From contig NZ_CP087724.1 of NCBI RefSeq assembly GCF_024972755.1, positions 1,302,001-1,366,000 on the forward strand: DNA of 64,000 nt, given 5' to 3'. The DNA is from Halanaeroarchaeum sp. HSR-CO (lineage in GTDB: Archaea; Halobacteriota; Halobacteria; Halobacteriales; Halobacteriaceae). The notes beneath the pieces are model-generated. The model worked only from the letters and a program-made list of their open reading frames with translations, was not told the origin of the DNA and did not search any database. Of this stretch, positions 56,288 to 60,415 are shown piece after piece. The number at the start of each line of letters is the position of its first letter. Within the stretch, counting starts at the first letter, position 1. A program made the translations under genes and the position numbers.

Positions 56288-56908
56288 CTACTCGTCGACG
56301 TCCGCTGCCGCTTCCTCTTCCGCGTGGACTTCCTCGGGGTGTGCCTCGAGGGTCGTCTTCTCGACCTCGACGCGGCGGAGGGGGTAGATCGTTTTCGCTT
56401 CGTTGTAGATCGCACTGGAGAGTCGCCCCTGGACGATGCTGTCCAGGAGTCCTTCGAAGGTCCGTTCGGCTGCGGCCTCTTCGACGAGGTCCAGCATGGT
56501 CCGACGGATGGCCTCTTTCTGGCTGCGGTCCGCGACTTTCGTGGTGAAGGCCACCGGTTGCACCTGGACGCGGTAATCGTCCGCGGTGCGGACGGTCAGG
56601 ATGGCCTTGACCTTCGAGGAGCCACGACGGACGAGACTCCGATTGTAATCGCGGGTCAGTTCCTGCTTGATGAGCTCGGTGTACGCGGCGTCGCTGCCGA
56701 CGTCGGTCACCCTGAAGGTGAGCTTGATGTTGTTCTCGCCACCGTCGTCGGTGACGTCACCCAGGGTCGTTTCGATGGTTCGGTCCAGTACCTTTTCCGG
56801 TTCGTCAGCGGGGGTCTCGCCGATCTCCGCCCGGTCGAACTGCTCCGGGGCGAGGACGGTGTACCACCGCTTCTCTTGACTCCGTTTGGAGACTGATCGT
56901 TCACTCAT
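56288..56908 (-). CDS. rps3ae: 30S ribosomal protein S3ae (eS1)
   Basis: 206 residues from the ATG at 56908 (MSERSVSKRSQEKRWYTVLA). Family blocks include KRWYTVLAPEQFDRAEIGET, LTRDYNRSLVRRGSSKVKAI and KDLVEEAAAERTF-like LDLVEEAAAERTFEGLLDSI, with an acidic C-terminal tail. It is the archaeal/eukaryotic small-subunit protein eS1. The start overlaps the Pcc1 stop by 8 nt, so it is the last gene of the rps15 operon. Confidence 0.95.
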   Translation of the reverse strand: MSERSVSKRSQEKRWYTVLAPEQFDRAEIGETPADEPEKVLDRTIETTLGDVTDDGGENNIKLTFRVTDVGSDAAYTELIKQELTRDYNRSLVRRGSSKVKAILTVRTADDYRVQVQPVAFTTKVADRSQKEAIRRTMLDLVEEAAAERTFEGLLDSIVQGRLSSAIYNEAKTIYPLRRVEVEKTTLEAHPEEVHAEEEAAADVDE

Positions 56909-57158
56909 GTGTTGATGTGGTGTGTCGTTCGGCGAGCTGTACGAGTTCGTCAGCGACGGCGCAGTTGACGACGTAATCGTCGAGTGTCGATCGCAGACCA
57001 CTGGTCGAATCGCGTTCGATGGTCGTGACCACCTGGTCGGGACCGTTCTCCGGTCGGTCGACGGTGGTGGTGATGGAGGCCGTGTTGTCCGGGCGAATCG
57101 AGGCGGCGACCGCCTCGGGGTCCGACACGTCGGTTCTGATGATCGCCGTCCGCGTCAT
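56901..57158 (-). CDS. pcc1: KEOPS complex subunit Pcc1
   Basis: 85 residues from the ATG at 57158. The small alpha/beta fold shows AAIIRTDVSDPEAVAASIRP-like opening (MTRTAIIRTDVSDPEAVAAS), a central beta-rich TTTVDRPENGPDQVVTTIER, and the helix LRSTLDDYVVNCAVADELVQ typical of Pcc1. Pcc1 dimerises the KEOPS complex, which makes t6A37 in tRNA. The gene overlaps the upstream DHH gene (57155-57158, ATGA) and the downstream rps3ae gene (56901-56908). Confidence 0.88.
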   Translation of the reverse strand: MTRTAIIRTDVSDPEAVAASIRPDNTASITTTVDRPENGPDQVVTTIERDSTSGLRSTLDDYVVNCAVADELVQLAERHTTSTHE

Positions 57159-58270
57159 TCTCGCCCCTCCAGACTCGTGACGAGCGCATCCGTCTCCGTT
57201 TCGGCCCACGCACTCGCGAGCCCCGCGTGGCCGCCGACGGAATCGATGCCGTCGAGCGACGCGAGTCGGTCCCTCGCATCGTGGTCCGACGTGGCCAGCG
57301 CGACCTCGTCCGCATCGACGACCAGCACGGTCGGTTCCGCCGAGCGGAAATCTCGAACGAGTCGAGCCGTCGTCCACGGGTCCGCACCGTCCGTCTCGAG
57401 GACGACGAACCCAGAATGGCGGGTTCTATCGCCGAGTCGGACGGCGTCGTGCACGGCACTCGCGTGCTCGCGCCAGGCCTCCAGAACGTCAGTTCGGTCG
57501 GCGTGGTCGAGTGCGAGTGCGGTGGCAAGACCCGGTTCGGTACGCGCGAGGACGGCGAGGACGTCCGCGTACCCCTCTACGGTTTCGAAGGGGCCTTCCG
57601 AGAGGACGTGTGGGCGCAGGACCCGCTCGATGGCCGTGACGGCGCTCTCCGGTGCCGGTGGCTCGGTCGCGGCGAGCGCGACGGCAGAGGCGACGCGTCG
57701 GTGGGCAGCCTCGTCCATGGCCGCCGGCAGATCGAGTTCGGCGAGCAGCGCTCCTCCACGTTGTTCGTCGCCGGAGATATCGGCGTGGAACAGCGTCGAG
57801 TGGGCGAGACCATCACCGAGGTCGGCCGTCGGTATGCCGACTCCCGGGCGGCGGTGGACGCCGGATTCGGTGGCTGCATCGAGGGCCTCACCGTGCGGGA
57901 CCGTCCCCGCCGCAAGAGCCCCCGCAATGGCCAGGATGGCGTCGGGGTCACCGAATTCGCTCGCCACCTCGAACGCTGCGATGGCGTTGGATTCGGCGAA
58001 GAGGACCGAGTCGGCGTCCTCGCCCTCGATACCGACAGAGACGGTCGTCTCGGTCGACGATTCGATCCGTCGGTCGGCCGCCGCGCGCGTTCGGACCGTC
58101 GAAACCTGGTAGGGCGTCGCCGGTTCGAGCGCGTTCGCGAGAATCCCCGCCGCGGCGACCGAGTCGCCGTCGGCGTGGCTCACGACGTGGACGAAGTCGG
58201 CCTCGCGCAGCGTGGCGGTGAGCGCCGAGACGTCCGGGTCGGTTGCGGCGGTTCGACCGGTGGTCGCCAT
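57155..58270 (-). CDS. RecJ/Cdc45-like DHH-superfamily protein, catalytic motifs degenerate
   Basis: 371 residues. Motif I is kept in part (SHADGDS; H32, D34, D36, but Ser for Gly). Motif II, normally VxxDxG, reads VSVGIEG around residue 80 with no Asp. The DHH triad expected near 93-97 is replaced (AESNAIAAF). The C-terminal DHHA1 Gly/His signature persists as GIDSVGGHAGLA. This fits the archaeal RecJ homologues (GAN/Cdc45-like) that partner GINS in the replicative helicase and are inactivated in some lineages. It sits between rps15 and pcc1/rps3ae, a known neighbourhood for archaeal RecJ. A structural role is inferred; exonuclease activity looks unlikely. Confidence 0.8.
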   Translation of the reverse strand: MATTGRTAATDPDVSALTATLREADFVHVVSHADGDSVAAAGILANALEPATPYQVSTVRTRAAADRRIESSTETTVSVGIEGEDADSVLFAESNAIAAFEVASEFGDPDAILAIAGALAAGTVPHGEALDAATESGVHRRPGVGIPTADLGDGLAHSTLFHADISGDEQRGGALLAELDLPAAMDEAAHRRVASAVALAATEPPAPESAVTAIERVLRPHVLSEGPFETVEGYADVLAVLARTEPGLATALALDHADRTDVLEAWREHASAVHDAVRLGDRTRHSGFVVLETDGADPWTTARLVRDFRSAEPTVLVVDADEVALATSDHDARDRLASLDGIDSVGGHAGLASAWAETETDALVTSLEGRE

Positions 58271-58276
58271 CTGGGG

Positions 58277-58741
58277 TTACTCCACGAGCTCCTTCGCGTT
58301 CTCGTAGGTGTACTCGAAGTCCTGGTCGATGGCGTCGCCGCGGTAGTAGTTGGCGAGCCGACGGATCTTGGACTCGGTGTTCTGCAGGGCACGCTTGTTC
58401 GAATGGTCCTGCTGATTCTCGTCCATGTGCTGGCGGAGGTTGACCGCCTTCTCGAGGAGGTTGTACAGATCCTCGGGAAGTTCAGGGGCTGCGTCGTTGT
58501 CCTCGAGGATTTCGGTGATCTTCTTCCCGGTGGCAGCCTTCACGTTCGGGACGGGCGTGCCCTGTACGCCTTCGTCACGAAGCTTGAGCCCGATCTGGCT
58601 CGGGTCGTGGCCTTCGTCGGCAAGTTCGACGACGCGCGCTTCGATAGCGTCCGCGTCGACGTCGCTCCACTCCGGTGGCTCGTCTGTCGCCGGTTTGTCC
58701 GAACCGGACGTTCCCCGGCGACGGGTATGCATTCGTGCCAT
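58277..58741 (-). CDS. rps15: 30S ribosomal protein S15
   Basis: 154 residues from the ATG at 58741 (MARMHTRRRGTSGSDKPATD), the standard archaeal S15 start. The N-terminal extension (about 1-70) is typical of archaeal/eukaryotic uS15. The rRNA-binding helices include LYNLLEKAVNLRQHMDENQQ (about 93-112) and DHSNKRALQNTESKIRRLAN. It is the first gene of the operon rps15-DHH-pcc1-rps3ae; the DHH gene begins 6 bp after its stop. Several inverted repeats lie in its 5' region. Confidence 0.96.
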   Translation of the reverse strand: MARMHTRRRGTSGSDKPATDEPPEWSDVDADAIEARVVELADEGHDPSQIGLKLRDEGVQGTPVPNVKAATGKKITEILEDNDAAPELPEDLYNLLEKAVNLRQHMDENQQDHSNKRALQNTESKIRRLANYYRGDAIDQDFEYTYENAKELVE

Positions 58742-58766
58742 AGCTGTCGGATTGGAACTGCACGTA

Positions 58767-58849
58767 CCGCAGGATAGCGGGCCGGCGTCGTGCCGGCGAG
58801 CACTACCGCAATCCCGAGTCCACGTGGGTGGACGAGTCAGATTTGCGGT
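58767..58849 (-). promoter_or_regulatory. Cluster of inverted repeats upstream of rps15 (possible structured mRNA leader)
   Basis: There are three successive inverted repeats. CCGC/GCGG lies at 58767-58770 and 58777-58780 (6-nt loop). GCCGGC/GCCGGC lies at 58781-58786 and 58792-58797 (5-nt loop). A two-part stem has ACCGCAA (58805-58811) pairing TTGCGGT (58843-58849) around GTCCAC (58818-58823) and GTGGAC (58828-58833). They end 25 nt before the rps15 ATG. A CTTTAG box at about 58888-58893 could start a transcript that includes all of them. A further pair GGCTCC/GGAGCC is at 58907-58912 and 58939-58944. Confidence 0.5.
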
Positions 58850-58969
58850 CGTGCGGTTCCCTATGGAAAGCCACTGGCGGCGACCGCTAAAGGGTTTCGT
58901 TCCCCTGGCTCCCGTCGGGGTCTGATCGTCGAGCGCGAGGAGCCCCGCGCCCTGGGTCGAATCGAGGGG

Positions 58970-59007: not shown

Positions 59008-59079
59008 GGGCTCGTAGATCAGTGGTAGATCACTCCCTTGGCATGGGAGAGGCCCCGGGTTCAAATCCCGGCGAGTCCA
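59008..59079 (+). tRNA. tRNA-Ala (anticodon GGC)
   Basis: 72 nt folding into a full cloverleaf. The acceptor stem GGGCTCG pairs CGAGTCC with discriminator A at 59079. The D stem is GATC/GATC. The anticodon stem CTCCC/GGGAG encloses TTGGCAT, giving anticodon GGC. The T stem CCGGG/CCCGG encloses TTCAAAT. No intron and no encoded CCA (TGC follows). The variable region is AGGCC. It is divergent from the rps15 operon. No direct repeat of its 3' end, as left by an integrated element, was noticed in the window. Confidence 0.97.
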
Positions 59080-59284: not shown

Positions 59285-60415
59285 TCAGTCTGCTATCGGG
59301 AGCGCGACGATAAAGATAGCACCCTGTGGATCGTTGTCTTCTACCCACACCTCGCCGCCGTATTCAGAGACGAGCGTGTCCACGAGATGGAGGCCCATTC
59401 CGGTTCCGTTGCTTTGCAATCCCTGCTCTCCCTTCCCGAATATCGCGTCCTTCCGCTCGTCGCTCACCCCCGGGCCATTATCCGATATGTGGACCTCGAC
59501 CATGTCATCCTGTACTGTCGTAGCGACGACGATTTCGGGCCTCTCCGCCTCGGTGTGCTGGATGGCGTTTTTCAATAGGTTCCGAAAAACGGCGTCCAGC
59601 ATCTGGTCGGCGAATACCGTTTGGTCGAATAGATCCCCCTCCACGTCGATGGTGGCGGTTTGATCCGAGGATCGAATCGCGTCGATCTCTCCGTGTAGAA
59701 CGGTCCTGATATTCATTTTCTGGCGCTCGACCCCCTGAGTGAGCATCACGTCTGCAATACGACCAGCAGTCATAGTCAATTCGATGGCATTTTTCGCACT
59801 TTCCTGGACGGTGTGGAGGTACGTTGCGCCATCGTCATCGATGTGGTCAGCGAGCATTTCCGAGTAGGCCGTAATGATCTGGAGGTCGTTACGAATGTCG
59901 TGACGCAAGACTTCGTTCAATATATCCAGGTTATCACGTTGTTCTTCGAGGAGTTCTTTGCGGTGGGACAGTTCGGTCAGTGCCTGTGCGTGTGAGACTG
60001 CCTTTTCGATACGGTTCAGTAGGAGGCTAAATTCACTCCCTTCGACGATGGTTTCCTTCGTCACGTAATCGGTCGCGCCCAGTCTGATCGCATCGATAGC
60101 GACCCCTTCACCACCCTGTCCAGTCAGAATGATGAATGGAAGCGCCCCTTGCGCTTCACGGACGTTTCCTAGCAGCTCGATTCCATTCATCGGCTGCATG
60201 TGATAGTCACTAACGATACAAGCGACGTCCTGGTGAGGGAGGTCCTCCAGGACAGTCTCTCCATCGTAGTAGGCTCTCGTTTCGAAGTCGGACTGCTCTT
60301 CGATCTCCCGAGCCATCATATTCGCAAAAAACTCACTGTCATCGACGATTATGACGGTCGACTGTTCGGGGGTACCGTCTCTCCACTGCACCGACTCGGA
60401 TGCGTCGCCGGTCAT
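59285..60415 (-). CDS. Hybrid response-regulator/histidine kinase (REC-HisKA-HATPase)
   Basis: 376 residues, no membrane segment. The N-terminal receiver (about 18-140) is intact: D25/D26, phospho-acceptor D70 (VSDYHMQPMNGIELL), T98 and K120. The kinase part has H172 (EVLRHDIRNDLQIITAYSEM), N box FRNLLKNAIQHTEAERPEIV, G1 ISDNGPGV and G2 NGTGMGLHLVDTL. The receiver-first order is common in haloarchaea and suggests it receives phosphate from, or is gated by, another kinase. A T-rich stretch lies 30 bp upstream. The target is unknown. Confidence 0.92.
   Translation of the reverse strand: MTGDASESVQWRDGTPEQSTVIIVDDSEFFANMMAREIEEQSDFETRAYYDGETVLEDLPHQDVACIVSDYHMQPMNGIELLGNVREAQGALPFIILTGQGGEGVAIDAIRLGATDYVTKETIVEGSEFSLLLNRIEKAVSHAQALTELSHRKELLEEQRDNLDILNEVLRHDIRNDLQIITAYSEMLADHIDDDGATYLHTVQESAKNAIELTMTAGRIADVMLTQGVERQKMNIRTVLHGEIDAIRSSDQTATIDVEGDLFDQTVFADQMLDAVFRNLLKNAIQHTEAERPEIVVATTVQDDMVEVHISDNGPGVSDERKDAIFGKGEQGLQSNGTGMGLHLVDTLVSEYGGEVWVEDNDPQGAIFIVALPIAD

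Follow-up and report, generated by a model that had tools for sequence, protein, structure and literature searches.

A known S15 leader upstream of rps15 in Halanaeroarchaeum sp. HSR-CO and a possible switch arm ahead of its start codon

The window analysed here is a stretch of 64,000 nt from Halanaeroarchaeum sp. HSR-CO (NZ_CP087724.1, positions 1,302,001-1,366,000, forward strand), and all coordinates below are positions within it. The minus strand carries rps15 for the archaeal ribosomal protein S15 (58277..58741 including the stop; NF006331 at 204 bits, PF08069 and PF00312), with its ATG at 58741, as a sequence-only reading of this DNA had assumed. On the same strand follow a RecJ/DHH-like protein at 57155..58270, a weak label (NF053576 at 21 bits versus a cut-off of 360; no Pfam match), pcc1 for a KEOPS subunit at 56901..57158 (NF011470 at 60 bits, cut-off 27, searched with a translation that started one codon ahead of the listed ATG), and rps3ae at 56288..56908 including the stop (PF01015 at 200 bits, NF003142 at 268 bits). 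In the main text of PMC7247131, recJ and rps3ae are listed as operon members for the Halobacteria S15 leader. Divergent from the region upstream of rps15 lies a tRNA gene at 59008-59079 on the plus strand (Rfam tRNA, 69.2 bits; anticodon GGC, alanine, by eye), and a minus-strand frame at 59285-60415 resembles, by eye, a response-regulator plus histidine-kinase protein.

In a cmscan search, the minus strand at 58800..58863 matched RF03143, the "S15-Halobacteria ribosomal protein leader", over the whole model (1-66 of 66) at 73.6 bits (gathering cut-off 49, E=1e-15). The motif, comprising the S15-site aptamer with stems P1-P3, precedes rps15 and is read in the same direction, with 58 nt between the motif end and the ATG. 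RF03143 was described by Eckert & Weinberg 2020 (PMC7247131, main text). The aptamer upstream of rps15 is thus already known and not new, as the stretch is a member of a published curated family. The inverted repeats that the sequence-only reading had placed upstream of rps15 are present at that position on the minus strand and are this known RNA element rather than an unknown one; the two-part stem ACCGCAA...GTCCAC/GTGGAC...TTGCGGT is RF03143 stems P2 and P3. The RF03143 match and the main text of PMC7247131 also support the suggestion that this is an S15 leader of the rps15-RecJ-like-pcc1-rps3ae operon. The region is very probably the autoregulatory leader of rps15, on which S15 would act, and this part of the interpretation is much safer than the leader-switch arm beyond the RF03143 model that is described below.

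Within the motif, segment 1 (GGGAAC-C-GCACG, the 5' strand, 58850..58861 in the minimum-energy fold) has two possible partners for its GCAC, namely 58803-58800 in the Rfam fold (P1) or segment 3 in an alternative fold (P0+P1'). Segment 2 is GUGC, the 3' strand of P1 (58800..58803 in the cmscan alignment, minus strand), at which the Rfam model stops, at 58800, and GGGAAC is left unpaired. Stems P2 and P3 occupy 58805..58848 on the minus strand (cmscan alignment), and their internal loop UCUGAC/CUCGGGA is the proposed S15 site. The main text of PMC7247131 claims that the S15 leader imitates the three-way junction of 16S rRNA. The 16S of the same genome contains GGCTTGGGG and GACCCGAC, which resemble the RF03143 consensus CUUGGGA and UCCGAC, and the window loop is a variant of this consensus UCCGAC/CUUGGGA, the 16S likeness being judged by eye and without a statistic. 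The Rfam stems are conserved among relatives and covary by a permutation test: only 3/5000 permutations were as good as the P1/P2 strands with their own partners, relatedness being ignored. Pairs were counted for P1 and P2 in 69 distinct rows. At each of the four P1 positions, 66 to 69 rows have a standard pair; for P2, 68-69 rows do so at six of eight positions, and 43 and 54 at the remaining two. The fold of 58742-58880 on the minus strand reached -63.8 kcal/mol, whereas shuffled sequences averaged -47.8 (z -4.0) and none of 200 did as well. With z -3.6 the complementary strand is well folded too, which is normal for inverted repeats. Two further hairpins follow the motif, both on the minus strand. 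The GC-rich one, GCCGGC-ACGAC-GCCGGC at 58781..58797, was seen in the fold, belongs to the spacer and is not conserved, being missing from six leaders of one genus (L059, L064, L065, L070, L083, L089), in which merely 33-34 nt follow the RF03143 motif. The small one is CCGC/GCGG at 58780-58767, and its GCGG is part of the conserved 3' element. The hairpins suggested an H/ACA guide RNA, a candidate that was dropped after no such Rfam match appeared at E up to 5.

Of 98 haloarchaeal genomes searched, 90 carry RF03143, the window's own counted, and 89 of these exceed the cut-off; Haloferax volcanii is among the carriers. All 90 loci were read, and one (L018), cut by a contig end, was left out, giving 89 in the coding and folding counts. 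The eight genomes without RF03143 include three that also have no rps15 match, one (G042) whose rps15 lies at the edge of a contig, and four (G034, G036, G049, G060) with readable DNA upstream of rps15 and no leader of the RF03143 type. The rps15 genes of these four genomes (L093, L094, L095, L097) belong to two families (f10, f12) and stand close behind another reading frame, which resembles a Ham1/RdgB-type pyrophosphatase.

A promoter-like (BRE/TATA) box, GAAACCCTTTA, lies at 58888..58898 on the minus strand, with its TTTA starting 30 nt upstream of the first G in GGGAAC. The loci were searched 20-45 nt upstream of GGGAAC for a T-rich box (TTTA, TTTT, CTTA or ATAA), with the candidate nearest 31 chosen, and a box was present 28-32 nt upstream of the first G in 90/90 loci. 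Independently of the choice of box, every one of the 90 loci has A or T at position -28 (T in 92%), within otherwise mostly G+C sequence. Such spacing is the usual distance from an archaeal TATA box to the transcription start. It predicts a start near 58861-58866, with the mRNA 5' end at or just before GGGAAC and a leader of about 120 nt, in line with the leader of more than 100 nt proposed in the sequence-only reading and away from 58741. A leaderless start near 58741 was considered, and the upstream promoter-like box argues against it. Section 6 of PMC7247131 states that published start-site data agree with its leader predictions as a set. According to the main text of Babski et al. 2016 (PMC4983044), 72% of the protein-coding transcripts of H. 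volcanii are leaderless; transcripts with a leader are thus the smaller share, as the sequence-only reading had remarked. A text search of that main text gave no occurrence of 'S15'.

Comparison of the 90 loci revealed a conserved 3' element, segment 3 (GCGGUACGUGCAGUUCC, 58754..58770, minus strand), which is outside the Rfam model and complementary to segment 1. Segment 3 was located by looking for [TC]TCC in the 48 nt ahead of the ATG, with preference for one preceded by TG; the conservation of its final letters is therefore in part built in. The consensus GCGGUnnGUGCnGUUCC is present in some form in 90/90 loci, in full in 54, and its core GUGnnGUUCC is kept in 78. Being reverse-complementary to the 5' end of the motif, GGGAACnGCACG, it competes with Rfam P1: pairing with GGGAAC alone (P0) is compatible with P1, and pairing that also takes in GCACG opens it. 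Ten pairs between segments 1 and 3 were scored; the count is ten in 64/90 loci, nine in 15, eight in 10 and seven in 1, so that 79/90 loci form 9 or 10 pairs (10/10 in the window) against 0.3% of shuffled partners. The base between GGGAAC and GCAC (58855 in the window) does not pair with its partner in 53 of 63 distinct rows, a mismatch that seems to be kept; 974/1000 shuffles reach the same pair count or more. Two ideas on the alternative stem were set aside: P2' (CCGC:GCGG) is weak as a switch part, its first pair being broken in 12/69 rows, and a bulge-helix-bulge processing site was judged by eye, the loops being two-sided. Neither the 3' element nor its pairings with the 5' end and with codons 2-3 (described below) were found in the main text of PMC7247131, in which a word search gave no wording for competing or sequestered structures, and in the literature collection searched no paper contained the names or accessions of RF03143 and RF03137. 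Segment 3 and its two partners are likely an addition to the published RF03143 motif, although the supplement of PMC7247131 may hold them.

The second partner of segment 3 lies in the coding sequence. Segment 4 consists of the rps15 start codon and codons 2-3 (AUG GCA CGA, 58733..58741, minus strand; from the comparison of 89 genes and the folds), whose GCACG is complementary to the CGUGC of segment 3. In the model considered here, free S15 would bind the internal loop of P2/P3 as a mimic of the 16S site and stabilise P1-P3. Segment 1 would then stay with segment 2, and segment 3 (CGUGCnGUUCC), left free, would pair with GCACG of codons 2-3 and hinder initiation (off). Once ribosome assembly has left no spare S15, segment 1 would pair with segment 3, which would open P1 and release codons 2-3 (on). 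We infer S15 binding, the direction of the switch and the action on translation; the sign of the proposed switch fits negative feedback. That the leader is an S15-controlled conformational switch using segments 1-4 is given about an even chance. The main competitor, held to be rather unlikely, is an S15 leader without a conformational switch, in which S15 on the aptamer blocks or traps the ribosome, GGGAAC:GUUCC is a permanent closing stem P0, and the similarity to GUGC is incidental. Such a stem is compatible with the Rfam fold, but GUG and GCGG of segment 3 are then unexplained.

Folding bears on both readings. In the minimum-energy fold of the window leader, segment 3 is paired with GGGAAC and GCACG and P1 is open, and when 30 coding nucleotides are included, the P1 state lies 2.5 kcal/mol above the alternative state. 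Over the 89 leaders, the alternative state is lower in 45 (mean difference 0.05 kcal/mol, sd 2.6). Forcing P1 gives a mean probability of 0.44 for the pairing of segment 3 with codons 2-3 (0 with the alternative forced), and in only 43/89 leaders does this probability exceed 0.3. In the window leader with P1 forced, P0 (0.51) outweighs the pairing with codons 2-3 (0.26), as a permanent closing stem would have it, but P0 averages only 0.14 over the 89 leaders under the same constraint. Covariation of the haloarchaeal alternative pairing was not significant, either for the 17-mers (1317/5000 permutations as good, 51 distinct rows) or for the P0+P1' part (1069/5000, 39 distinct rows); both strands vary too little, so the haloarchaeal data neither prove nor exclude this pairing. 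At the variable core position 12, 8 of the 11 rows with A have U opposite, and 49 of the 58 with G have C or U (Fisher p 0.047 for A with U, relatedness ignored), and the pair is broken in 12/69 rows. At core position 8, the P1' pair is broken in 7/69 rows and the P1 pair in 3/69, and the better keeping of P1 (66/69 rows, against 62/69 for P1') and the lack of covariation in P1' favour a leader without a switch.

AUGGCACGA stands at the start of 85/89 haloarchaeal rps15 genes with a leader, GCA being used in 88/89 and CGA in 85/89, compared with GCA for 173 of 974 Ala codons and CGA for 78 of 907 Arg codons from codon 11 onward in the same genes. For Arg at codons 2-3 in this genome, CGA accounts for 17/58 (258 long open frames, unverified as genes). 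The four readable rps15 genes without the leader use CGT, CGT, CGG and AGA, never CGA (Fisher p 2e-5 for CGA with versus without the leader, relatedness ignored); the rps15 of L096, where the upstream DNA is missing, has CGA. In only 64/89 leaders does the alternative state make the region from -3 to +9 more open (0.52 vs 0.42, mean gain 0.09), a modest predicted effect on the start site. When 16 synonymous codon pairs were placed on 30 leaders, GCA CGA gave the largest difference, equalled at two decimals by GCA CGC. GCA CGA is also found at codons 2-3 in 44/78 Methanomicrobia rps15 genes, where the anti-site sequence described below differs; the codons are therefore perhaps kept for another reason, which suits a leader without a switch. 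Selection on open start regions or on initiation itself could fix GCA CGA.

The sister leader RF03137 (S15-Methanomicrobia) was found in 117/119 genomes searched, and 81 loci were read (30 best-scoring among the loci returned, 46 picked for diversity and 5 others). It shares with the window leader the Rfam clan CL00121, the rps15 gene and an anti-site ahead of the ribosome site. After the S15 site stands an anti-site block complementary to the 5' strand of the site helix, GUAAGUCC; it is exactly GGACUUAC in 38/81 loci and fits GGA[CU]UUA in 61/81, and 5/81 blocks were positioned manually on the basis of complementarity. The pairing covaries, with 0/5000 permutations as good (70 distinct pairs from the 81 loci, relatedness ignored) and a score of -15.48 for own partners vs -13.75 (sd 0.25) for permuted ones. 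For the core alone, 0/5000 were as good (56 distinct), and outside the core the signal is weak (279/5000). The 51/81 loci with a recognised start codon and a spacer of at most 110 nt were folded; the anti-site state is lower in energy in 43 of them, and the ribosome-site window is more open in that state in 45 (0.53 vs 0.43). RF03137 differs from RF03143 in its stem order and in its anti-site, GGACUUAC or near it against GUAAGUCC, and also, unlike RF03143, in a T run before the anti-site and in a Shine-Dalgarno-like GGAGG that is often visible by eye. The two related leaders thus have the same kind of anti-site before the start codon in different sequences. In Methanomicrobia, this anti-site is incompatible with the site helix and its pairing covaries, which counts against a leader without a switch. 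That Halobacteria and Methanomicrobia S15 leaders share the complete switch, an aptamer with an anti-site arm that rebinds its 5' strand, and that the switch has fixed the synonymous codons 2-3 in haloarchaea, is a tentative proposal, put somewhat below even chances.

It is improbable that the conserved RNA binds another factor, for instance S3Ae, or is a separate small RNA from the same promoter. The rps3ae gene does belong to the operon, but the main text of PMC7247131 assigns the leader to S15 with the support of junction mimicry, at E up to 5 the matches that overlap the leader include neither an H/ACA nor any other small-RNA family, and segment 3 is conserved near the rps15 start. Less probable still is transcriptional action, with S15 binding promoting termination in the leader: a T run of at least 4 lies within 14 nt before the anti-site in 76/81 Methanomicrobia loci and poly-U in that form is noticed in the main text of PMC7247131, but T runs between the motif and the start element of the window do not exceed 2, and a T run of 4 occurs in only 4/90 haloarchaeal leaders. 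The Methanomicrobia T run often follows a GAGUC/GACUC hairpin, by eye, and looks like a terminator between the aptamer and the anti-site.

The window leader shares its gene and lineage with the rest of the RF03143 family, and the 3' element and the codon 2-3 partner lie outside the family model. Four experimentally confirmed bacterial S15 leader forms are cited in the main text of PMC7247131; the bacterial S15 (rpsO) leaders would work alike if S15 represses its own mRNA here too. RF03143 concerns mRNAs without an obvious Shine-Dalgarno sequence in the leader. Should the S15-controlled switch be true, it would give a specific, mutable model for this family, which is present in Haloferax volcanii, a species with genetics.
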